Shown here one piece after another: positions 2,229 to 30,029 of a stretch of DNA of 30,795 nucleotides. Under the pieces are notes generated by a model. It had not been told where the DNA came from, searched no databases, and saw only the letters and a program-made list of their open reading frames with translations. The position numbers and the translations under genes were made by a program. This DNA comes from a virus: positions 1 through 30,795 of IMG/VR virus record IMGVR_UViG_3300038701_002479; one strand, written 5' to 3'. Every line of letters starts with the position of its first letter. The stretch's first letter is position 1.

Positions 2229-3208
2229 TGCCAAAAAAAAACAAGATAACCCCAAAATGGGAAAAGTACATCATAAAAAATCGCCTTAAAAAGACCGCCA
2301 AGGAAATGGCCTTGGTAATAGGTTGTTCCTCTTCCGCGGTGTGCAAATGGCTTAAAGATAATGATCTATCCGTGTCCAGGGCTGTAATAACCCCTGAATG
2401 GGAAAAATATATAACAGAAAACAGGTTTAAAATGTCCTCTAGGCAAATGGCAGAAGTAATTGGTTGTTCCCCTGGGCCTGTAAGTAAGTGGATGCGCCAA
2501 AACGGACTATCAGTATCCAAGGAACTGTCCAATAAATTTAAGGGAGATGCCTTAAAGGGCCGTACCATAATGACCCCAGAACAGGATGCCATCCTAAAGG
2601 AAAAATACCTTACCGTTCCGGTAAAACCTTTGGCCCAGGAAATTGGCGTATCCCATGGCTGCCTTAGTAACCGTATGAAACAATTGGGCCTAGTGGTCCC
2701 AAAAGAATTACGCCAGGCACGCAAAGCCAAAAGCAGGTTCAAAAAAGGGCATATAGCCCATAATAAAGGGTTAAAGCGTTCGCAGTTCATGACCCCGGAA
2801 GGAATAGAAATATCAAAAAAACATCAATTTAAAAAAGGCCACGTACCGCATAACGATCTGGGCAGGAACGGTATTATAAGAGTGCGTAAGGACAGTAAGA
2901 CCAGGGCACAGTACCAATACATAAGGGTTTCGTCCGGTGAATGGGAATTATTGCAGAGATATAACTACAGAAAGTATTTTGGAGAAATACCGGAGGGGTA
3001 TTTGGTACGCCTAAAAGATGGTAATACTATGAACTGTAGCCCTGAAAACTTAGAATTGATCTCCATGGCAGAAAACGCCCGCAGAAATACAGAACAGTTC
3101 CACAACTGGCCAGAACCCTTAAAAAAAGCAATTCGCATCAATAATAAATTAACAAAAACCCTAAGAAAAAATGGAAAATCAAAATCAAGAAAACAACAAG
3201 ACGCTTAG
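2228..3208 (+). CDS. Three-HTH protein with degenerate HNH domain
   Basis: A 326-residue protein in two parts. Residues 1 to about 160 hold three tandem helix-turn-helix repeats, each starting TPEW/TPEQ and passing through a motif like AEVIGCSPGPVSKWMRQNGLS. The C-terminal half has two FKKGH-x-x-HN motifs (near 178 and 203) and an HNH_3-like domain (about 235-290) containing FGEIPEGYLVRLKDGN and CSPENLELISMAENARRN. The first His expected of this family (usually within LHR) is Gln here (LLQRY), and the DHIDGN-type motif reads RLKDGN. Nuclease activity is therefore doubtful and DNA binding is the safer prediction. Homing-type HNH genes are common next to terminases. It overlaps terL and the next ORF, and is probably co-translated. 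Confidence 0.75.
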   Translation: MPKKNKITPKWEKYIIKNRLKKTAKEMALVIGCSSSAVCKWLKDNDLSVSRAVITPEWEKYITENRFKMSSRQMAEVIGCSPGPVSKWMRQNGLSVSKELSNKFKGDALKGRTIMTPEQDAILKEKYLTVPVKPLAQEIGVSHGCLSNRMKQLGLVVPKELRQARKAKSRFKKGHIAHNKGLKRSQFMTPEGIEISKKHQFKKGHVPHNDLGRNGIIRVRKDSKTRAQYQYIRVSSGEWELLQRYNYRKYFGEIPEGYLVRLKDGNTMNCSPENLELISMAENARRNTEQFHNWPEPLKKAIRINNKLTKTLRKNGKSKSRKQQDA

Positions 3209-3647
3209 TCATTTAAACACCGTCCTTTTTAATTCCCTAACGGAAGTTATAGAGGGAGCAATGGACCCCAAAAAGGGCCAATTAATAAGCAACTTGGCCG
3301 GGCAGATCATCAACAACGCCAAAACACAGTTGTCCTATTACAAACTTACCAGCAATAAAAAGGCATTAACGGCTTTTGAAGCTCCACCGGCACCCTTAAC
3401 CCTATCCATAAACAAGGATATTAAGGCTATTCCTGTAACCTCAGAAGTGGTTTCTCCTGCAAAATTGCAGCAACCTTTAGAGGTTAAGGAACACGAGCCA
3501 TTTGTAGAGACCCCGGAGCAGATTGCCTATGCCAAGCATAAGAAATATTTAAACGTGGTAGAGGGTTTGGTGGTAGAAGGGCAGGACACCTTTAAAAAAA
3601 ATGTGGCGGAATGGGCAGCGGCCAATTTACAGCCCGTAGAATCTTAG
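3171..3647 (+). CDS. Hypothetical phage protein
   Basis: A 158-residue ORF starting inside the 3' end of the HTH/HNH gene (38-bp overlap, different frame). The sequence begins with an Asn/Gln-rich lead. Around residues 20-65 it has a helical segment (FNSLTEVIEGAMDPKKGQL, then NLAGQIINNAKTQLSYYKLT), followed by a Pro/Val-rich linker and a helical C-terminus. There is no signal peptide, membrane segment or recognisable catalytic motif. Codon use matches the surrounding structural genes. The segment IINNAKTQLSYYKL resembles a motif often found in small phage proteins of unknown function upstream of portal genes. I assign no function. Confidence 0.7.
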   Translation: MENQNQENNKTLSHLNTVLFNSLTEVIEGAMDPKKGQLISNLAGQIINNAKTQLSYYKLTSNKKALTAFEAPPAPLTLSINKDIKAIPVTSEVVSPAKLQQPLEVKEHEPFVETPEQIAYAKHKKYLNVVEGLVVEGQDTFKKNVAEWAAANLQPVES

Positions 3648-3651
3648 ACCA

Positions 3652-3747
3652 ATGGAAAGCTCCAATGAAACATACATATTGGGAGCCATCATGTTTGCAG
3701 CCTTAATGCAGATAGCAGAAATACTATATCAAAAATATAAAAAATAA
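3652..3747 (+). CDS. 31-residue single-span membrane microprotein
   Basis: A short ORF starting 4 bp after the preceding stop and ending 3 bp before the next start. It has a hydrophilic N-terminus (MESSNET), one predicted transmembrane segment (YILGAIMFAALMQIAEILY) and a basic tail (QKYKK). The tight spacing on both sides and the complete hydrophobic span argue that it is translated. Function unknown. Confidence 0.55.
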   Translation: MESSNETYILGAIMFAALMQIAEILYQKYKK

Positions 3748-3750
3748 GAA

Positions 3751-3936
3751 ATGATAAAATTATTCAATTACGGAAGTAGTTTTTTTTACGGTCCGCTGTT
3801 CAGCACCAAAAAGACAATCAAGATAGTTAAAATGGTATATGTGCCGTTTATTATCCTGGTAGTAATATTGTTTTTGGCAGATGCGCTACAGGGCAACGTA
3901 GATTTCTCAAAACTAAACGGCCCGTTGTTACCATGA
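3751..3936 (+). CDS. Small membrane protein
   Basis: A 61-residue protein with one strongly hydrophobic stretch (MVYVPFIILVVILFLADAL, about residues 28-46) between a basic N-terminus and a short polar C-terminus. Its stop overlaps the next gene by 4 bp (ATGA), so the two are probably coupled. It belongs to a run of small membrane proteins between the terminase and the accessory island. It has no recognised family and might be an accessory holin or superinfection factor, but nothing in the sequence decides this. Confidence 0.6.
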   Translation: MIKLFNYGSSFFYGPLFSTKKTIKIVKMVYVPFIILVVILFLADALQGNVDFSKLNGPLLP

Positions 3937-4136
3937 AGACCATTTACAGGATAATACTTATCATATTTGGCACCTGTGGCCTAATGCTGTTAACCTCATG
4001 GCTATTGTCCTGGAGTTTTATAGCACAGAGCTGGGTGCGGCAGGCCGTGGTAATGTTGCTTATGGTCCTGGAGCTCTTCCACGGATTTCTATTGTACCAA
4101 CAACTGGGCATGTCCATTAAAAACCAAAAACAATGA
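3933..4136 (+). CDS. Small two-span membrane protein
   Basis: A 67-residue protein with two hydrophobic segments: IYRIILIIFGTCGLMLLTSW (about 4-23) and QAVVMLLMVLELFHGFLLY (about 37-55), followed by a basic tail KNQKQ. It overlaps both neighbours by the ATGA arrangement. Size and topology would fit a small holin-like protein, but it lies far from the endolysin, so that role is only a possibility. Confidence 0.6.
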   Translation: MKTIYRIILIIFGTCGLMLLTSWLLSWSFIAQSWVRQAVVMLLMVLELFHGFLLYQQLGMSIKNQKQ

Positions 4137-4846: not shown

Positions 4847-5154
4847 GATTAAAATTTGAATGGTGCTGTAATAAAATGGAAATATTTTCTAAATGGGATA
4901 TACCTTGTGAAGGTTGCGATAGAAGCTGCGAGCATTTAACTAAGGTTGCTCCATGTAGAGGTATTCTAGATAAAGATAGAAACAGGCTTTTGGAAAGAGA
5001 TAAGGTGTGTCTTAAATGCGGTTCTGAAAGCAAGTTGACCATTGATCATGTAGTGCCAATTTCTAAAGGTGGAAGTAATGACTTTAATAACCTTCAAATT
5101 TTATGTGAAAAATGTAATTCGTTAAAAGGTAGTAAAATTGCGGATTACCGTTAG
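4840..5154 (+). CDS. HNH endonuclease
   Basis: A 104-residue protein with a complete classical HNH core: a zinc pair CLKCGSE, the catalytic TIDHVVPISKGGSNDFNNLQ (His-His/Asn pattern) and a second zinc pair CEKCNSLKG. A further Cys cluster (CEGCDRSCEHL) lies upstream. Small HNH enzymes of this kind nick or cut DNA. In phages they act as homing endonucleases or, next to terminase and portal genes, help packaging. An in-frame upstream start at 4777 would overlap the preceding ORF, and the ATG at 4840 overlaps its stop neatly, so I prefer that start. It lies just before the cassette array and may belong to the same island. Confidence 0.85.
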   Translation: MLRLKFEWCCNKMEIFSKWDIPCEGCDRSCEHLTKVAPCRGILDKDRNRLLERDKVCLKCGSESKLTIDHVVPISKGGSNDFNNLQILCEKCNSLKGSKIADYR

Positions 5155-5188
5155 CCTACAATAAGCAATCTTTTAAACTATTAAAATT

Positions 5189-5335
5189 ATGACTCTAAAA
5201 TCTCAAATTAGGAAGGCTATAAACGAAAATACCAAGTACACCTATATCAAAATGTATAAGCCTGAAATTAGGACTTTTGATGATGGTTCTGCAACTATCT
5301 TAATAGAAGTTGACATAAAATCAAAACCAAAATAA
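5189..5335 (+). CDS. 48-residue hypothetical protein
   Basis: A short ORF beginning MTLKSQIRKAINENTKYTYI and ending in a basic EVDIKSKPK tail, preceded by an AT-rich leader (TTAAACTATTAAAATT). Alternating hydrophobic residues (SATILIEVDIK) suggest a beta strand. An imperfect hairpin (AAACCA at about 5326, TGGTTT at about 5343) overlaps its end. No family recognised. It may be a cassette gene lying before the first clear hairpin site. Confidence 0.4.
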   Translation: MTLKSQIRKAINENTKYTYIKMYKPEIRTFDDGSATILIEVDIKSKPK

Positions 5336-5373
5336 TTTTACTGGTTTGATTGCGGGGCTCGATGCCCCATTCG

Positions 5374-5607
5374 TTGCCACGTATTAGAGAAACGGGTAAA
5401 ACGTAGGTACGGAGTTTTGTTTCTCGTATCCGAAGCAAAGGACAGTTATTTGAAACGGAGTGAGTAAATCACTGTCCTTTGCTGAGGTTATGCGTGGCAA
5501 CGTTTAGTATAAAAATTGAAGCGTGTAAGTACGCTAAAAGAAATACATTAGTTAACAAGTAATAGCCTTATAAATTGCACCTGAATAGCTATTATTTTTA
5601 TACATTG
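5374..5607 (+). mobile_element. Cassette 0: non-coding hairpin unit
   Basis: The unit runs from the TT of CGTTGCCACG (5372-5381) to the G of the next GTT boundary at 5607. Its start is the exact complement of CGTGGCAACG at 5493-5502, where its own terminal hairpin site begins. It holds no plausible ORF. It contains nested hairpins: GAGAAAC/GTTTCTC (5387-5393 with 5419-5425) and a perfect 13-bp stem at 5434-5446 with 5471-5483. The stretch 5336-5626 therefore has structure but no gene. It may specify a small RNA or be a decayed cassette. Confidence 0.45.
5434..5483 (+). repeat. Perfect 13-bp hairpin in cassette 0
   Basis: AGCAAAGGACAGT at 5434-5446 is perfectly complementary to ACTGTCCTTTGCT at 5471-5483, with a 24-base loop. 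There is no T-run after the 3' arm, so it is not a simple terminator. Confidence 0.7.
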
Positions 5608-5613
5608 TTAGGG
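5495..5613 (+). repeat. attC-like hairpin site 0
   Basis: An imperfect dyad with outer boxes ending in CAAC (5495-5501) and beginning GTTAGGG (5607-5613). Its inner arms are perfect: GTATAAAAAT (5507-5516) with ATTTTTATAC (5594-5603). The left spacer between outer and inner box is 5 bases and the right one is 3, the unequal spacing known from integron attC sites. Further small hairpins (TAATAGC/GCTATTA) lie inside. The outer left box departs from the RYYYAAC consensus. Confidence 0.5.
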
Positions 5614-5626
5614 TGCGTTATTTAAA

Positions 5627-5881
5627 ATGGATAACCCAATAAAAGACAACAGAATAGTAAAAGACAATACCTTCGCTTTAAGACTTTTAAGTTTTGCGTT
5701 AGAAACTAATTGTGCTGATGCTTGTAGTGAGGATGAAAAAGAATCTATGATAAGTTACTCTACAAGTTTACTTAAATACCAGATAGAAACTGCAACCGAA
5801 ATACACGAAATAACTTATTTAGAAAGGTGTAACGCAAAAGCAATACTTAAAAAAGGCTTAAAGTTTTTAGGTAAATCTTAA
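5627..5881 (+). CDS. Cassette 1 gene, hypothetical
   Basis: An 84-residue soluble protein, mainly helical by eye (NTFALRLLSFALETNCADAC, then STSLLKYQIETATEIHEITY), with two Cys near residues 29-33 and a basic C-terminus (KAILKKGLKFLGKS). I do not recognise the family. Codon use is more AT-rich than in the morphogenesis genes. It fills the unit bounded by GTTAGGGTGCGTTATT (5607) and AATGCACCCTAAC (5880-5892), so the gene sits exactly between the two halves of a long inverted repeat, as in an integron cassette with a single ORF. The stop overlaps the right arm. No obvious promoter lies inside the unit. Confidence 0.65.
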   Translation: MDNPIKDNRIVKDNTFALRLLSFALETNCADACSEDEKESMISYSTSLLKYQIETATEIHEITYLERCNAKAILKKGLKFLGKS

Positions 5882-5885
5882 TGCA

Positions 5886-5985
5886 CCCTAACGGGCTGGC
5901 GTGTATGGTGAGTGAGCAATAGCCCGTTAGGAGCGGTGCGGAACCACCATCACACTCGCTCATTGACTGTACACGCCTGTTGGCG
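5886..5985 (+). repeat. attC-like hairpin site 1
   Basis: The outer boxes CCCTAAC (5886-5892) and GTTGGCG (5979-5985) resemble the integron R boxes RYYYAAC and GTTRRRY. The inner arms GGCGTGTA (5898-5905) and TACACGCC (5970-5977) are perfect. The left spacer is 5 bases and the right one a single base. An alternative internal dyad GGGCT/AGCCC (5893-5897 with about 5921-5925) is also present. The expected recombination point by analogy is between G5979 and T5980. Confidence 0.55.
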
Positions 5986-6021
5986 ATAGTGCCCATCGAA
6001 TACAAACTAAATTATATAAAT

Positions 6022-6264
6022 ATGAACCGTATTGAATTAATAAAATTCTATGATTATTTAGCTGATAAAAAAGTAATCACAGACCAAGAGGTAGGTAAAG
6101 CATTTAGATGGATTGATAATTTTATTAATTCTATGAGCGAGGGTGAACGCCAGCCCGTTGGCAATAATGAGCAGGGCGTGAGTAAATGCATTCCATTGTT
6201 TCATAACTCTGCCATTAAGTATTATGGACAATGTGGCAAATGTGGTCAAGCCACTGAAATGTAA
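6022..6264 (+). CDS. Cassette 2 gene, hypothetical
   Basis: An 80-residue protein starting MNRIELIKFYDYLADKKVIT. It has a helical N-terminal half and a C-terminal region with CIPLFH and a CGKCGQ pair that could bind a metal. The frame stays open upstream to a TTG at 5980, but that would lie in the inverted-repeat arm, so the ATG at 6022 after an AT-rich leader (TTATATAAAT) is more likely. The gene is enclosed by GTTGGCGATAGTGCCCAT (from 5979) and its near-perfect complement ending in TTGCCAAC at 6310. Family and function unknown. Confidence 0.6.
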   Translation: MNRIELIKFYDYLADKKVITDQEVGKAFRWIDNFINSMSEGERQPVGNNEQGVSKCIPLFHNSAIKYYGQCGKCGQATEM

Positions 6265-6303
6265 TGGCATTTACGAAGCAATGCGTCCCTCGATGGGCAT
6301 TAT

Positions 6304-6474
6304 TGCCAACGGTCGGGGTATATCTTGCTGTAAGGCGCAGCCTGACAGAGTGCAAGATTGCTGCGGCTTATTGAAGATATACTTTGTTGGTGGTCGTCAC
6401 CTAAAGTAAGGCACGGAATTAAATAAATATAATACTAACTGACTCTAAGCCGTAGCATACCCCGACCGTTGGTG
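6304..6474 (+). repeat. attC-like hairpin site 2, composite
   Basis: Two overlapping dyads share the left box TGCCAAC (6304-6310). The short form closes at GTTGGTG 6386-6392, with inner arms GTATATCTT (6318-6326) and AAGATATAC (6374-6382). The long form is a perfect 15-bp stem of 6306-6320 with 6458-6472 (CCAACGGTCGGGGTA and its complement). The decamer GTTGGTGGTC occurs at both 6386 and 6468. This suggests either a duplicated boundary or an 82-bp empty cassette. The gap 6265-6510 holds nothing but this structure. Confidence 0.55.
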
Positions 6475-6630
6475 GTCATGAAGTGGTGCGGGAGTCTTAA
6501 ATTTTTAACTATGGAGATATTTACATACATAATCGTAGCGATTGTTTTTTGGTTGTTAGGTTTTGCGACTGGAGCTGGCGATTAAAAATTTATAGCGTAG
6601 CACTACGGCCTTTAGGTCATGACCACCAAC
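6468..6630 (+). mobile_element. Cassette 3 inverted-repeat unit
   Basis: GTTGGTGGTCATGA (6468-6481) is exactly complementary to TCATGACCACCAAC (6617-6630). The match continues imperfectly inward: GTGGTGCGGGAG...AAATTTTT against AAAAATTT...GTAGCACTAC. The unit encloses one microprotein ORF. Its right end abuts the next hairpin arm (CGGAACGGGGCTATG). Confidence 0.55.
6511..6585 (+). CDS. 24-residue membrane microprotein
   Basis: The sequence MEIFTYIIVAIVFWLLGFAT followed by GAGD is almost entirely one hydrophobic span. It is the only ORF in the cassette 3 unit and lies centrally between the inverted arms. An A/T-rich leader (TTAAATTTTTAACT) of the type favoured in Bacteroidota precedes it. Translation is unproven, but its location argues for a real gene, possibly a small membrane toxin or regulator. 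Confidence 0.4.
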   Translation: MEIFTYIIVAIVFWLLGFATGAGD

Positions 6631-6636
6631 GGAACG

Positions 6637-7061
6637 GGGCTATGAAAAGTACGTGAATTAAGCACTTACTTTCAATAAAAAACCTAAAAATAAACCCTTT
6701 TTTAGCGCGGGGATTGGACGCTATTAACTTTAATAAATTAAAAAAATGGATTACACTGATTTTTTAGTAGAATGTAGAAACCCAAAGGCGTTTGATGATA
6801 CAATACAACAACTGGGTAAAGCCGTATTACACCAAAACCACAAAGGTGAATATGAAAAAAAAGAAGGTTATTATTTAATGAGAGTTATTGGAGATTCAGG
6901 ATTTCTAAAATTTGCCATAGAAAACCAAGGTTATGGTAAGGTGATTAGAAAGTTTGAAGAACCGAGCTAAAAAGCGAAAAGGCAAAAAAGGGTTTATTTT
7001 TCTTTGAATTTAAAAACTACCATTGATGAATAAGCCTTGCCTTACGTGTTTTTTATAGCCC
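6637..7061 (+). repeat. Long outer and 18-bp inner inverted repeats
   Basis: The inner arms are AAAAATAAACCCTTTTTT at 6686-6703 and its exact complement at 6984-7001. The outer arms are GGGCTATG plus TACGTGAATTAAG (6637 to about 6663) against CTTGCCTTACGTG plus TATAGCCC (about 7037-7061), which are imperfect. Outer boundaries are CCAAC (6626-6630) and GTTGTGC (7064-7070). The 74-residue ORF lies within both. Confidence 0.6.
6746..6970 (+). CDS. Nested cassette gene, hypothetical
   Basis: A 74-residue protein starting MDYTDFLVECRNPKAFDDTI, with a helical first half, a charged centre (HQNHKGEYEKKEGYYLMRVI) and a short C-terminal strand region (GYGKVIRKFEEPS). Function unrecognised. The ATG is preceded by an A/T-rich leader TTTAATAAATTAAAAAA typical of Bacteroidota starts. 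It is unusual in lying inside the arms of the hairpin site that should close cassette 3, and in having its own perfect 18-bp inverted repeat. It may be a separate insertion into that site. Confidence 0.6.
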   Translation: MDYTDFLVECRNPKAFDDTIQQLGKAVLHQNHKGEYEKKEGYYLMRVIGDSGFLKFAIENQGYGKVIRKFEEPS

Positions 7062-7063
7062 TT

Positions 7064-7147
7064 GTTGTGCGTAGTGCTTACCTTAAACGATAAGCACGGA
7101 CTTGCGAGATTGCACTAAATTAGATTCTTTCTTGCATTACGCACAAC
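7064..7147 (+). repeat. Terminal inverted-repeat unit of the array
   Basis: GTTGTGCGTA (7064-7073) is exactly complementary to TACGCACAAC (7138-7147). Inside lies GTGCTTA/TAAGCAC (7074-7080 with 7091-7097). The unit is short and has no ORF. It is the last of the chain and no clear right-hand closing box follows before the recombinase, so the final hairpin site seems truncated. The gap 6971-7199 holds only this structure. Confidence 0.55.
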
Positions 7148-7199
7148 TCCTATATATAAACACCCACCACACAACCCTAATAAAATATACTAATCACCT

Positions 7200-7994
7200 A
7201 TGAAAGTTGTAGAAAAATTTAAAATAATTCTTACAAACAAAAACTACTCTACCCGGACCATAGAAATCTATGTACACTATTTGGAAAAGTTTTTAAAGGA
7301 CTTGGGTAAAAATCCTTATCACATTACCCAAAAGGAGATAGAGGCGTATTTGTTAAGGTTTAATTACTCAGGTGTATCGCAACAAAACCAGATTATTGGC
7401 AGTATTAAATTGTTTGCCAGGTACATCCTCAACAAAAAGGAAGTGCATTTATCAAAATTGGAGCGACCAAAAAAGGAAAAGAAATTGCCTAGGATTATAG
7501 ATGTACAAATGCTTAGGAATAAGATACTGGCTATCCGTAACAAAAAGCACAAGGCAATATTAGCTTTGGGCCTTGGTTGCGCTATGAGGGTAAGTGAAGT
7601 GATCAATTTAAAGATTGCGGATATAGATGGGGACAGGTCCGTGATCCATATTAGGAACGCTAAAGGTAGAAAGGATAGGATTGTACCCGTATCGGACGAA
7701 CTATTAAAGATACTTCGGGACTATTACAAAGCCTACAGGCCAAAAGTATATTTGTTCAACGGGCAGTTTAGCGATACCTATTCTGCGGCAAGTTGTAACA
7801 AGATTATGAAAAAGTACATCCACCCTAAAGCACATTTTCATCAATTAAGGCATTCCGGTGCAACCCATATCCATGAAACAGGCACGGATATAGCAACTAT
7901 TTCTAAATTCCTGGGGCATAATTCGGTAAAGACCACCATGATATATACCCATGTAAGCAATGAAGCGCTTAAAAGGATACGTCCGGCAATCTAA
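7200..7994 (+). CDS. XerC/D-like tyrosine recombinase
   Basis: A 264-residue site-specific recombinase with every catalytic residue visible. An N-terminal SAM-like DNA-binding domain spans about residues 1-85. The catalytic core has Arg130 (CAMRVSEVINL), Lys155 (NAKGRKDR), HxxR as His214-Arg217 (FHQLRHSGATH), His240 (FLGHNSVKTT) and nucleophile Tyr249 (MIYTHV). The TTMIYTHV ending is shared with XerC/D and integron integrases, but the extra segment specific to IntI between the Lys and HxxR motifs is not present. It lies 53 bp beyond the last inverted-repeat unit, in the same direction, and its stop is inside the right direct repeat. It may act on the cassettes, on the island or on a dimer site. 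The phage has a second, unlike integrase at 28899. Confidence 0.9.
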   Translation: MKVVEKFKIILTNKNYSTRTIEIYVHYLEKFLKDLGKNPYHITQKEIEAYLLRFNYSGVSQQNQIIGSIKLFARYILNKKEVHLSKLERPKKEKKLPRIIDVQMLRNKILAIRNKKHKAILALGLGCAMRVSEVINLKIADIDGDRSVIHIRNAKGRKDRIVPVSDELLKILRDYYKAYRPKVYLFNGQFSDTYSAASCNKIMKKYIHPKAHFHQLRHSGATHIHETGTDIATISKFLGHNSVKTTMIYTHVSNEALKRIRPAI

Positions 7995-8123: not shown

Positions 8124-9332
8124 GTGAATCTTTTAGAAAGAGGTGTGGTTAGTATGTTTGAAAAGAGGGCATCGGGGGAAACTTCCCTAATGCCCTCTTT
8201 GTTTTCTTTTGGCAGCTTCGCATCTACAGCGGCAGGCCGTAAGGTAAACCGCAATACCAGCCTTAAGATATCCGCATTTTACTGCGCCCTTACCACCTTG
8301 GCAGAATCCTTTGCCCTATTGCCCAAAGCAGTGTACCAGGTGCAGGGAGAGAACAGGAACCGCCTACCGGACCATCCTTTAGATTATGTCCTGCACGACG
8401 AGGCCCATAATTACATGACCGCCTTTATGTTCAATTACATCATGGTCCTTTCCCTTTTTGTAAAGGGCAATGCCTATGCCTATATAATGCGCAACAATTC
8501 CGGCAACATAGTTGGCCTACAGTATTGGGATGCGGACAAGGTAGAAGTGGTAGAATCCAACGGAAAACTGTTTTACAAATATAACAACAAGACCTACGGG
8601 GCAGCGGAAGTATTCCACGTGCCCGGTTTCTGCTTTAACGGCATAGTGGGCCAGAGTATAGTACATTTTGCAGCGGACAGTATGGGCACGCCCTTGGCCG
8701 CACAGGAATACGGTGCCAATTCTTATAATGATAAAGGGGTAAGTATGGGTGTCCTGGAGACTGATTTGGCTTTAAAGCCAGAAGCCAAGGACAGGATGAA
8801 AAATGCATGGGCGGAAGCCCTTTCCGGTAACGACCCGCATAGGGCCGTGGTATTGGATGAAGGTTTCAAGTACAGCTCCATACGCCTTTCCCCGGATCAG
8901 TCCAAATTTATAGAGGCCAAGGTAGAAGGTACGGGAGATATTGCCCGTTGGTTCAAAATACCCTTGCACATGTTGCATGTTACCGGAGAGGGCGGATACA
9001 ACTTTCTGGTACAGATGTCCATTAGTTACCTACAACATGCCGTACAGCCCATAGCGGAAAAGTTTAAACAGGAATCAAATAGAAAACTGTTGACCAGGAC
9101 AGAGCGCCAAAACGGACTGTACATTAACTACAACTACAAAAAATTATTGCAGGTAGATCCAAAATCAAGATCGGAGTTCTATAAGAACATGATCATGATG
9201 AAGGCCATGACCCCTAACGAGATAAGGGACCTGGAAGATATGAACCCTTACAAAGGTGGGGACGAACCTTTGCAGATGGTAAACATGCAGACCTTAACGC
9301 AGATAGAAAAATCGTTGGAAGATGAAGGATAA
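8124..9332 (+). CDS. Portal protein (HK97 gp3-like)
   Basis: A 402-residue portal subunit, the dodecameric ring through which DNA enters. Conserved patterns include ISAFYCALTTLAESFALLPK near residues 50-70, the DHPLDYVLHDEAHNYMTAFMF region, KGNAYAYIMRN, and the C-terminal NEIRDLEDMNPYKGGDEPLQ that is standard in this family. The length is typical. The GTG at 8124 gives MNLLERGVVSMFEKRA. An in-frame ATG at 8154 (MFEKRASGE) is an equally good start and would remove ten residues. It overlaps the prohead protease gene by 11 bp. In most HK97-like phages it follows terL directly, but here about 6 kb of accessory DNA lies between them. Confidence 0.95.
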   Translation: MNLLERGVVSMFEKRASGETSLMPSLFSFGSFASTAAGRKVNRNTSLKISAFYCALTTLAESFALLPKAVYQVQGENRNRLPDHPLDYVLHDEAHNYMTAFMFNYIMVLSLFVKGNAYAYIMRNNSGNIVGLQYWDADKVEVVESNGKLFYKYNNKTYGAAEVFHVPGFCFNGIVGQSIVHFAADSMGTPLAAQEYGANSYNDKGVSMGVLETDLALKPEAKDRMKNAWAEALSGNDPHRAVVLDEGFKYSSIRLSPDQSKFIEAKVEGTGDIARWFKIPLHMLHVTGEGGYNFLVQMSISYLQHAVQPIAEKFKQESNRKLLTRTERQNGLYINYNYKKLLQVDPKSRSEFYKNMIMMKAMTPNEIRDLEDMNPYKGGDEPLQMVNMQTLTQIEKSLEDEG

Positions 9333-9939
9333 AAATAAAATACAGACCCGTTTTGTGCAGGTGCGCCAAAACGGAGTGGACTTAGAAAAAAGGACCGCAG
9401 AATTTGTAATAAGTACAGAGGCCGTGGACAGTTACGGTACTGTATTCCTGGCGGATGGTTGGGATTTTACCCGTTATAACCAAAATCCTGTGGTATTCTA
9501 CCAGCACGGTAGCCATAGTGCGGACCCGGATGCATTAGTAGGGGTATCCAGTTTAAGGCAGGAAGGTAAGGATACTATTGCAAAGGTCACTTTTGAGCCA
9601 GAGGATATTAATCCGTTGGCAGAAAAGGTATTACGAAAATTGCACCACGGCACCCTTCGCGGGGCTTCCATTGGTGCGGATATTAAGCAGGGCCGTTGGG
9701 GCAAGAAAGATGCTGGGGAGGACCCGGACGTAATATATTTTGAAAGACAGGAACTGTTGGAGTGGTCCATTGTTACCATCCCTAGCAACCCTGCCGCATT
9801 AAAAAGAAATGCCGAGGATCTGGATGCCTTAAAAGCATCCTTGGCACCTGTAACCGCGGAAGTGGTTGCACCAGAAAATAGAGAAAGTGGGCTGGATGAA
9901 TTTGAGGCTCAGTACATGTATAACAAAAACAAAGTTTAA
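9322..9939 (+). CDS. Prohead maturation protease (S78-like)
   Basis: A 205-residue serine protease that trims the capsid delta domain during head maturation. His62 lies in NPVVFYQHGS and the likely nucleophile Ser116 in GTLRGASIGAD, the pair expected in the HK97 gp4/S78 family. The segment QELLEWSIVTIPSNPAA (about 140-156) is the conserved C-terminal strand region. Length is typical. It starts within the 3' end of the portal gene and is followed after 2 bp by the capsid gene, the usual portal-protease-capsid order. Confidence 0.93.
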   Translation: MKDKNKIQTRFVQVRQNGVDLEKRTAEFVISTEAVDSYGTVFLADGWDFTRYNQNPVVFYQHGSHSADPDALVGVSSLRQEGKDTIAKVTFEPEDINPLAEKVLRKLHHGTLRGASIGADIKQGRWGKKDAGEDPDVIYFERQELLEWSIVTIPSNPAALKRNAEDLDALKASLAPVTAEVVAPENRESGLDEFEAQYMYNKNKV

Positions 9940-9941
9940 AG

Positions 9942-11249
9942 ATGAAAACGTTAGCAGAATTGTTACAGGAGAGAGCTTCAAAGATCACAGCTCAAAAAAA
10001 GATGATCGACACCCGTAAGGCCGAAAAAAGGGACTTTACGGAAGAAGAGGCCACGGCATTCCGTGCCTTGGACAAAGAAATTGAAGGTTTGGATACCAAG
10101 ATTGAGGAGCGCAAAGCAGAGGACGAGGCGGAAAAGCGTGCAGCTTCTTTAGCTGGTGCCGTTGTTACGGATGGTGAGGAAAAAGAAAAAGAAAAAATCC
10201 AAGAGCGTTTTTCCATCTTAAAGGCATTGAGAAATGCGGACCCAAGAAATGCAAAAGGTTTGGATGGTGCAGAAAAGGAAATACATGAGATTGGTATGGC
10301 AGAAAACCGTAATGCCAAAGTTGGTAGTGGGGATGTGCCCAGCCTTTCCATTCCATTATCTTATTTCTCTAGGGCTACGGCACAGACAAAGACAGAGGAT
10401 AGTGGTTCTTATGGTGGTGCCTTGGTGCAGAACCAGGCTCCGCAGATGGTTGCCCCTCTACGTCCTAAATTGGCGTTCGAGGAATTGGGTGCTTCCTTTA
10501 TGACAGGCTTGTCCGGTGGGGATATTCCTTTGGTAGTGGATAATGATTTTGCAATGACTTTCCTAGCGGAAACCACTGCCATTACACCACAGAAAAAGAC
10601 CTATGCAGGTCCTACCTTATCGCCTAAGCGTGCGGGTGGTGCTGTGGATATTTCCAACCAATTGTTGTTACAATCTTCTGTAGATGTAGAGAACAGGATT
10701 GTATCCGGTCTTAAAAACGGCTTTGCGCAATTATTGCACACTGCAATTATCAATGGTGCCGGTGGTGTTGCCCCAACAGGGCTTTTGACGTATTCAGGTA
10801 TTAACGATGCTGCGGCTACGGCTGCACAGTCATCCTCTTGGGCGCGTATTGTAGAGCTTATGGCCCTTATAGAAGAGGACAATGCCACAGATGAGAGCCT
10901 TGGTTTCTTATTGTCCCCAACCTTAAAGGCTGCGCTTAAGCAGGTTAAAAAGGATGCAGGATCAGGGCGTTTCTTGTTAGAGAACAATATGATAGATGGG
11001 TATAAGACCATCTCCACGTCTTTGGTTCCTGCCTTGGATGATGATGGTACTGCCGTTTATCCTTTGATCTATGGAGATTTCAAACAAATGGTAATTGGCC
11101 AATGGGGAAGTGTTAACGTAACCATCAACCCTTACAGTGCAGACCTTAGTAATTCTGTTCGTTTAGTGTTGAACACTTATGCGGACATGAAGATTGCTAA
11201 CCCTGCTGCCTTTGCAAGAAACCTTTTCTTGACCAACGCAGTATCTTAA
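9942..11249 (+). CDS. Major capsid protein (HK97-fold)
   Basis: A 435-residue capsid protein. Residues 1 to about 75 form a charged coiled-coil (LLQERASKITAQKKMIDTRK, then RALDKEIEGLDTKIEERKAE), the scaffold-like delta domain that the preceding protease would remove. The rest has the HK97-fold pattern: the PLVVDNDFAMTFLAETTAIT stretch, DISNQLLLQSSVDVENRIV, INGAGGVAPTGLL, and a final strand region ending ADMKIANPAAFARNLFL. The cleavage site would lie between about 100 and 140, which I cannot place exactly. Codon use is strongly biased, as for highly expressed genes. A clear hairpin terminator follows 17 bp after the stop. Confidence 0.95.
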   Translation: MKTLAELLQERASKITAQKKMIDTRKAEKRDFTEEEATAFRALDKEIEGLDTKIEERKAEDEAEKRAASLAGAVVTDGEEKEKEKIQERFSILKALRNADPRNAKGLDGAEKEIHEIGMAENRNAKVGSGDVPSLSIPLSYFSRATAQTKTEDSGSYGGALVQNQAPQMVAPLRPKLAFEELGASFMTGLSGGDIPLVVDNDFAMTFLAETTAITPQKKTYAGPTLSPKRAGGAVDISNQLLLQSSVDVENRIVSGLKNGFAQLLHTAIINGAGGVAPTGLLTYSGINDAAATAAQSSSWARIVELMALIEEDNATDESLGFLLSPTLKAALKQVKKDAGSGRFLLENNMIDGYKTISTSLVPALDDDGTAVYPLIYGDFKQMVIGQWGSVNVTINPYSADLSNSVRLVLNTYADMKIANPAAFARNLFLTNAVS

Positions 11250-28854: not shown

Positions 28855-28862
28855 TAGTTTTG
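28855..28862 (+). promoter_or_regulatory. Integrase promoter -7 element TAGTTTTG
   Basis: An exact TAnnTTTG. The expected -33 element is weak (TTTT near 28832). Transcription would begin near 28869-28870, which favours the ATG at 28899 as the integrase start. The element ends in the first right-hand GCGCAT repeat, so integrase or a repressor bound there could block it. Confidence 0.5.
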
Positions 28863-28890
28863 CGCATAGTGTTGCGCATTTTAAGCGCAT
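28862..28890 (+). repeat. Right arm repeats, three GCGCAT
   Basis: GCGCAT occurs at 28862-28867, 28874-28879 and 28885-28890, spaced 12 and 11 bp, so on one helix face. With the two left copies they bracket the tRNA-Val core, the layout of attP arm sites. They also overlap the integrase promoter and may be its operator. Confidence 0.55.
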
Positions 28891-28898
28891 TTTTAATT

Positions 28899-30029
28899 AT
28901 GGTCATTACTGTAAAATTAGATCTAAGGAAGTCAGGGGAGACAGAAAACGGTTTCCCCTTGGTAGTGTACTGCTCCCAAAATTACAAAAAAGCGCAATGG
29001 CGTACCGGGTTTTATGTAAAATTGGAGCATTGGAACGACAAGCTTGCGCAGCCTACCAAAAAGCACCCTGGGTATTATGTTTTGTTAGATCACCTTTCCA
29101 AGCTTAAAAAACGTATATCCAATGTAATTAGGGAAAATGGGGGCCGTGCCCATAGTCTAAAGGAAATTAAGGCAATGGTATTCCGTAAGGAATCTTCCGT
29201 ATTTTCGGAATCTGCCTTTAATAGTTTTCCAACAGATTACAAGGGCACTAATTGGAGCGCGGTGGTGGCTTTTGATAAATTTGCACCTGGCGTATATTTT
29301 ACGGAGATAAACAAAGAACTGGTGTACAAGTTCAGGGACCACCTTCTTAAGAAGGGAAACCTGCCCGGTGGGGTAGATAGTTACATTAGGTCTTTAAGGG
29401 CGGTCTGGAACCGTTTAAGTGGCTTGGACAATCCTTTTAGTGGTATTGCCGTGGAAATACCCAATACCGCAAAGAAAGTGGCCACTGTGCAGGATATAGC
29501 GTTGTTGTGTTCCGCGCAATTGGCAGAACATGGGGATATAGGCAGTCCTGCCCATTATAGGGACTATTGGCTGTTAATGTTTTACCTGGGCGGTATAGAC
29601 CCGGAGGTCTTGGCTAAACTAAGGTATGATAAGCATGTGGTGAACAACCGTATAATTTTTAATAGGAACAAAGGAAGGTCCAAGGCATTGTGCAGCAATA
29701 CCATTCCTGCCCAGGCTTGGGAAATTTTGGAAAAATACCAATGCAGGCCCTATCTGGTGCCTATTTATAAAAGTACCAACTATGGTACGTTTTCCCGTAA
29801 TTTTGCCAGGCGTTTTGGTAAGATATGCATTAAATTGGGGGTGTCCGTGGCCTTAAAGCCAAAAGGGGCCAGATATACCTTTATAGACCGTGCCCAACAG
29901 TTATTGGTAGATGAGCGCATTACCGCCCAGATCGTGGGCCACAAAAGGCGTACCGTTACCAGTATCTATACAAACGACTTTCCACAGGCGGTACAGGATG
30001 CCGCGCACCTGAAAATAATTTCTATTTAA
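28899..30029 (+). CDS. int: Phage integrase, tyrosine recombinase family
   Basis: A 376-residue integrase. It has an N-terminal arm-binding domain (MVITVKLDLRKSGETENGFP), a SAM-like core-binding region (about 95-190), and a catalytic domain with FYLGGIDPEVLAKLRYDKHV, RIIFNRNKGRSK (beta-hairpin Lys), GARYTFIDRAQQ (the HxxR site, His replaced), VGHKRRTVTS and nucleophile Tyr in SIYTNDFP. Bacteroidota integrases often replace the first His, but here the usual box I Arg is also not evident. The start at 28860 used by the longest frame would lie across the promoter and repeats, so 28899 is preferred. It would recombine attP with tRNA-Val. Confidence 0.88.
   Translation: MVITVKLDLRKSGETENGFPLVVYCSQNYKKAQWRTGFYVKLEHWNDKLAQPTKKHPGYYVLLDHLSKLKKRISNVIRENGGRAHSLKEIKAMVFRKESSVFSESAFNSFPTDYKGTNWSAVVAFDKFAPGVYFTEINKELVYKFRDHLLKKGNLPGGVDSYIRSLRAVWNRLSGLDNPFSGIAVEIPNTAKKVATVQDIALLCSAQLAEHGDIGSPAHYRDYWLLMFYLGGIDPEVLAKLRYDKHVVNNRIIFNRNKGRSKALCSNTIPAQAWEILEKYQCRPYLVPIYKSTNYGTFSRNFARRFGKICIKLGVSVALKPKGARYTFIDRAQQLLVDERITAQIVGHKRRTVTSIYTNDFPQAVQDAAHLKIISI

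Follow-up and report, generated by a model that had tools for sequence, protein, structure and literature searches.

Gene layout of the window

The window, here the whole 30.8-kb virus record that was analyzed, carries a terminase large subunit gene at 513-2228 and a portal protein gene at 8124-9332. Small genes and hairpins fill positions 5373-7147, flanked by an HNH gene and a recombinase gene, with the portal gene beyond. The features of this region, all on the plus strand, are as follows.

5373..5501, plus strand: gene-less hairpin unit, whose arms GTTGCCACG.../...CGTGGCAAC pair and whose terminal AAC is the left border of cassette unit 1; it is free of ORFs of 60 aa or longer
5501..5891, plus strand: cassette unit 1, AA^C to AA^C, with the same borders in two other viral records (L257, L258)
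5501-5607, plus strand: folded site of unit 1, stem GTATAAAAAT / ATTTTTATAC
5607-5621, plus strand: start arm of unit 1, the end arm reaching 5892
5627-5881, plus strand: ORF of unit 1, 84 aa, phrog_24038
5892..6309, plus strand: cassette unit 2, start arm from 5979 (21 positions), end arm to 6310
5892-5979, plus strand: folded site of unit 2, stem GGCGTGTA...TACACGCC
6022-6264, plus strand: ORF of unit 2, 80 aa, no family
6310..6629, plus strand: cassette unit 3, start arm 6386-6406, end arm to 6630
6310-6386, plus strand: folded site of unit 3, its 3' border alternatively at 6468
6511-6585, plus strand: ORF of unit 3, 24 aa
6630..7147, plus strand: degenerate or composite stretch, with an ORF at 6746-6970 (74 aa) and then a gene-less arm pair, 7064/7147
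7145..7162, plus strand: attI-like junction, AAC followed by TCCTATATATAAACA, adjoining the recombinase gene and fitting the phage consensus AACTATTATATATAAACA
7200..7994, plus strand: tyrosine recombinase, XerA-like, the proposed cassette integrase, 264 aa

Each cassette was found to hold one gene and one foldable site, and the stretch 6630-7064 departs from this rule. The cassette 2 protein had two weak relatives only. The 74-aa ORF is enclosed by an 18-nt exact inverted repeat (6686-6703/6984-7001) that is without the GTT/AAC core. A second copy of GTTGGTGGTC (6306-6321, 6457-6472), together with a second copy of the inner stem partner (6386/6466), gives an alternative 158-nt site, apparently through nested duplication of site 2/3. 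Another tyrosine integrase, with a SAM_5 domain, is encoded at 28860-30029; it is probably the phage's own integrase, freeing the XerA-like enzyme for cassettes.

Arm pairs and their control

Arm coordinates are given as the G of GTT and the C of AAC. All sequences quoted in an earlier sequence-only reading of this DNA were present in the window, and its account of the arms was borne out. The near-perfect complement described for cassette 1 pairs 5607 with 5892 over 14 positions (13 Watson-Crick, one G.T), the 21 positions with 19 matches described for cassette 2 are 19 Watson-Crick and two G.T pairs (5979/6310), and the 14 exact positions given for cassette 3 are true of the copy at 6468 set against 6630. 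The copy at 6386 pairs with 6630 over 21 positions (19 Watson-Crick, one G.T, one mismatch), and 6468 was rejected as the start of cassette 3, being without the position-11 wobble that 6386 has. This wobble is present in 5607/5892, 5979/6310, 6386/6630 and 7064/7147, the last a gene-less pair absent from the earlier reading. The continuous stem proposed for the closed unit folds as predicted, and the site in the array does not form it.

Arm pairs were counted at ≥14 positions, ≤1 mismatch, a score ≥12 and a GTT-to-AAC distance of 60-700 nt. Five pairs were found in 5301-7200, against a mean of 0.018 and a maximum of 1 in 500 Markov-1 shuffles. On the plus strand of the 30.8 kb outside 5301-7200, the same settings gave zero further arm pairs, and the single match on the minus strand of the window was the mirror image of one among the five.

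Cassette borders

Borders were judged on longer blocks shared between records, because the 120-200-nt BLAST blocks within arrays are mostly the sites themselves. The cassette 1 block recurs in L257 and L258 with identical borders and 81-87% identity, from the AAC of the upstream site, through stem and gene, to the AAC of the downstream site, and the stem of the downstream site that follows differs in each. Between L049 and L100, which are different contigs from different metagenomes, a 315-nt block is 100% identical from AAC to AAC. The junction that the sequence-only reading had placed at GTT (5979 joined to 5608) was thus displaced: the shared blocks put the border at AA^C of the 5' arm, and GTT-to-GTT borders were seen in none of them. 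Since the blocks span AAC to AAC, each hairpin goes with the gene on its 3' side. The AA^C borders in the window have their C at 5501, 5892, 6310 and 6630; the predicted circles are therefore 5501-5891, 5892-6309 and 6310-6629, with the hairpin upstream of the gene in each.

The adjacent recombinase

The best family for the window recombinase was NF040815 (XerA-like; E 4.6e-51, 173.9 bits, below the curated cut-off of 220), and PDB entries 4a8e and 5hxy were matched. The TIGR02249 (IntI) cut-off of 265 was not reached by the window protein (147 bits) or by its relatives in L100 (151) and L155 (206), and the alignment to IntI4 (2a3v) breaks at the IntI extra domain, where query residues 175 to 210 stand against 180 to 263 of IntI4. 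By score and by extra domain, the window recombinase does not identify as IntI. The box I R and HxxR lie a median of 86 apart in viral and 92 in chromosomal relatives, compared with 133 in IntI and 97 in Xer; on this sequence spacing, the IntI-specific (I2-type) insertion was judged missing. R130, K155, H214, R217, H240 and Y249 were invariant among relatives. In a tree of 66 proteins, the IntI clade (100/100) was separate from the viral (95/98) and chromosomal (87/83) clades, a topology compatible with either one or two origins of the presumed cassette habit.

Chromosomal relatives (e.g. L155 7779-8822) have an N-terminal extension of ~70 aa that is absent in the phage proteins, and the median recombinase size was 352 aa in chromosomes vs 266 aa in phages. 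One 246-kb virus (G389, the record of L260) carries two differing recombinase relatives, at 77362-78144 and 233732-234511 (46% and 48% identity). In L008, an integrase-like ORF (9358-10668) adjoins the array.

Folded sites beside the recombinase

A purpose-written attC finder, which was written after the window had been seen and scores top-strand wobbles, was run on 85 viral loci with recombinase relatives, the contigs being in many cases 100-360 kb long. Upstream, on the recombinase strand, 279 folded sites were found in 424 kb (0.66/kb), compared with 0.022/kb on the downstream side, 0.026/kb on the opposite strand and 0.013/kb for Markov shuffles. At least two sites were present in 49 of the 54 viral loci having ≥2.5 kb upstream, in one orientation and directly upstream. 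For chromosomal relatives (80 genome loci, nearly all Bacteroidota), the opposite strand of the 315 kb lying downstream gave 116 sites. In one of these loci, the Flavobacterium saccharophilum array (L155), a 1,115-nt stretch is duplicated at 99% identity (folded strand 2953-4067 and 5061-6175).

T4-like jumbo phages were among the carriers of recombinase relatives: the 180-kb record of L100, the 362-kb record of L119 and the 276-kb record of L078 include T4-type portal genes. Terminase genes were present in 5 of 15 sampled viral records. Among isolates, Polaribacter phage Leef (L048) has a recombinase relative and four sites by this finder, and phages Ingeline (L046) and Freya (L047) have a relative and zero sites. 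The last two count against the proposed system.

The other side and the other strand of the same loci serve as the better control. A set of integrases (L013-L045) tried as a negative control was rejected as weak, with L011 and L020 true IntI, sampled members in the IntI clade and the finder not tuned to canonical attC. L011 and L020 are IMG/VR contigs with TIGR02249 scores of 444-450 bits (cut-off 265), and they and the L013-L045 group are either viral records that carry canonical integrons or contigs that were misclassified.

Apparent insertion at an attI-like sequence, and block shuffling

A conserved TATTATATATAAACA-like stretch follows the last AAC before the recombinase in most viral loci. 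An AAC..TATA string lay upstream in 83 of 88 viral loci, most of them AACTATTATATATA-like at the expected place, the pattern being loose and part of the 83 matches lying inside the recombinase gene. At the recombinase end of the chromosomal arrays, a related AACTNGTTTATA motif was present in most of the 57 pattern matches (80 loci).

Four viral loci (L068, L070, L072, L069) have recombinases ≥99% identical and an identical leader of ~107 bp, and their arrays (L068/L070, L072, L069) diverge outward from the AAC. In L072, the end of a cassette X (...GGAGCATAAC) adjoins the attI-like motif; in L069 the same end adjoins a cassette Y, which itself adjoins the motif. On this comparison, the pair is an apparent insertion of one cassette exactly at the attI-like sequence. 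L080 and L093 hold the same blocks in altered order, with breaks at AAC. A conserved motif, with turnover and one clean insertion exactly there, points to an attI beside the proposed integrase.

Self-pairing of cassette ends

For 201 viral and 82 chromosomal cassettes, the end arm was matched against three kinds of start: that of its own cassette, that of the following one (as in the array) and random ones. At least 14 positions paired with the own start in 50% of viral cassettes, compared to 10% in the array and 8% at random, and in 55%, 9% and 7% of chromosomal cassettes. The comparison of array and circle suggested by the sequence-only reading thus came out as it had expected, with own-end pairing strong and in-array pairing far weaker (139 viral and 64 chromosomal cassettes).

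A column-wise analysis was made on the 139 viral and 64 chromosomal cassettes with ≥9 paired positions. The paired stretch takes in the first 15 positions and breaks down at the 16th. Positions 5-10 and 12-15 differ among cassettes yet match their own partner. At position 11 a start-side G faces an end-side T, and this G.T pair is present in 102/139 viral and 51/64 chromosomal cassettes. The R-box consensus here is GTTAKNNGYAGT. The GTTRRRY core of R' was not found as such: GTTA/G holds, and 92/139 viral and 30/64 chromosomal arms have T at position 5. In inner stems, G.T outnumbered A.C by 419 to 25 under symmetric scoring, in sites from a finder that itself favored that strand, which hints at one folded (top) strand as the substrate.

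As a superintegron yardstick, a Vibrio-type attC repeat query gave nothing usable in 369 genomes, and gammaproteobacterial integron contigs had few sites by the finder. Because these yardsticks yielded little, annotated class 1 cassettes (15 gene entries) were used instead. Their own-end exact matches were 8-12 nt without the position-11 wobble, a comparison made on exact 8-12 nt runs only, with a random-pair control that is long from searching many pairs. Of the earlier suggestion that the arms exceed the usual 7-bp R box, the length stands, at 15 positions, and the uniqueness does not, as class 1 cassettes show 8-12 nt; extended pairing in itself is also seen in class 1, and what is new is the arm length and the fixed wobble.

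Cassette genes and their orientation

Viral cassettes (202) had a median length of 422 bp and a median ORF of 90 aa, and chromosomal cassettes (82) a median length of 802 bp. Relative to the folded strand, 168 viral cassette genes were sense and 16 antisense; in chromosomes 12 were sense and 69 antisense. Genes and recombinase were co-directional in phages and in chromosomes alike, and genes pointing away from the integrase and antisense to the folded strand were not the arrangement of the phage family. Most of 129 cassette proteins were without a Pfam match; matched cargo includes DNA methyltransferases, the antirepressor-type P22_AR_N domain, an exonuclease and YopX.

The cassette 1 gene also occurs in four records (L259-L262) where it has neither arms nor sites and is an ordinary phage gene. 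In L261, the homology begins just past the start arm and ends before the end arm. These armless copies are a lead on cassette origin, short of proof.

Proposed mechanism and alternatives

The locus is very probably a phage-encoded integron-like system run by the adjacent XerA-like recombinase, with cassettes reaching from AA^C to AA^C. A cassette would consist of a site foldable as a single strand and then one small gene. Its own ends would pair over 15 positions, with the near-fixed G.T at 11, so that a complete site would exist only in the self-closed unit. The adjacent recombinase would cut at AA^C and excise cassettes, insertion would take place at the conserved AAC-TATTATATATA (attI-like) just upstream of the recombinase gene, and each new cassette would displace older ones away from it.

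The anatomy, the association, the self-pairing, the exact exchange borders, the attI-like insertion and the shuffling can be read directly in the genomes compared. This recombinase is the presumed actor; likewise, the top (coding) strand would be the folded substrate, circles the intermediate, and the 15-position arm what is read. The integron-like interpretation of the sequence-only reading agrees with the own-end arms and with movement at exact borders. Its predicted excised circles are retained in that cassettes move and own ends pair, and corrected in the place of the junction (AA^C instead of GTT), and its recombinase that reads an extended stem is plausible from the 15-position arm with its near-fixed wobble.

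Among the alternatives, the one that keeps most weight, though improbable, is an ordinary attC cluster (CALIN) derived from a host integron, whose units are moved by a host IntI and whose neighboring recombinase is unrelated. Phage CALINs are known, and 5 of 6 tested phage attC sites were IntI1 substrates (Qi 2023, PMC9892861); L257 and L258 have cassette 1, and a recombinase of this type was looked for in their records and not found. Against this, the sites are strictly co-located and co-oriented with the recombinase family, and the arrays end at the recombinase in the window and nearly all viral loci, where a CALIN is an attC cluster without a nearby integrase. The conserved attI-like motif lies beside the recombinase with turnover exactly there, the R-box consensus is unlike GTTRRRY, and Bacteroidetes are nearly without integrons in IntegronFinder 2.0 (In0 and one complete integron, in Salinibacter ruber; PMC9024848).

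Movement of the units by host XerCD or another host recombinase through dif-like sequences, as in pdif (Xer/dif) modules, would suit the Xer-like character of the recombinase, and Xer-type modules occur on plasmids. The form of the sites speaks against it, these being variable folded palindromes of ~40-190 nt with GTT/AAC borders, unlike the short fixed dif, as does a dedicated recombinase with an attI-like motif on one side, and we consider this explanation quite unlikely. That the hairpins are terminators or RNA-processing signals among small phage genes, with the arms as by-products, fits small co-directional genes parted by hairpins that are mostly strong stems, but is least likely of all given outer arms that pair across the gene, vary by cassette and match their own partner, blocks that move with exact AAC borders, and chromosomal array genes that lie against the site strand (69 antisense vs 12 sense).

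Comparison with known systems

The proposed phage-encoded cassette system shares with IntI integrons the one-gene cassettes, the folded imperfect-palindromic sites with GTT/AAC core boxes and a predicted cleavage point that corresponds to G^TT and reads AA^C on the folded strand. In both, an attI-like site adjoins the integrase gene, cassettes are gained next to this site and shuffled, and the order on the folded strand is array, attI-like site and recombinase. Canonical attC folding and strand rules were taken from PMC8946536. The differences are the protein (no I2-type insertion, below the TIGR02249 cut-off, in a separate clade), the arm of 15 positions with a near-fixed G.T at 11 compared to 8-12 nt without it in class 1, and a second core position that is T or G here and R canonically. 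Inner and outer stems are here separated by a spacer that is short on one of its sides (a,b 5,2 / 6,3 / 6,2). Phage cassette genes are sense to the folded strand, whereas canonical ones are antisense; Bacteroidota chromosomal cassettes are antisense as in canonical integrons, yet co-directional with the recombinase, unlike them.

Phage CALINs (Qi et al. 2023), one of them in a Polaribacter phage, likewise combine attC-like arrays with small genes including methyltransferases. They were found by canonical attC models and are without an integrase, whereas a non-IntI recombinase and an attI-like sequence are present here. XerA/XerC-like recombinases (NF040815) are the closest protein family, with the catalytic residues conserved; those act at a single dif site, and the relatives here are tied to cassette arrays. 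Full-text searches, confined to openly accessible published papers, turned up no account of such a system.

Significance

Judged from the genomes compared, some viruses of Bacteroidota carry rows of what appear to be integron-like cassettes beside their own recombinase, outside the known integron family. On balance we lean towards regarding this as a second integron lineage, in which a XerA-like family separate from IntI has attC-like and attI-like sites of its own, is present in Bacteroidota chromosomes and phages, and goes with the opposite cassette gene orientation in the phage pool. IntI is the sole integrase family behind current integron biology, and a separate recombinase family with cassette logic would part the essential features (folded site, attI, self-pairing ends) from the IntI-specific ones. 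A non-IntI family could also explain the near-absence of integrons in Bacteroidota surveys. Phages, jumbo phages included, would gain a dedicated route to swap small genes, e.g. methyltransferases. The 15-position arm and its near-fixed wobble open strand choice and cassette circles to direct testing. Because some cassette genes also occur as armless ordinary phage genes, a second lineage may reveal how cassettes are made, and these armless copies offer a handle on the question of cassette origin.
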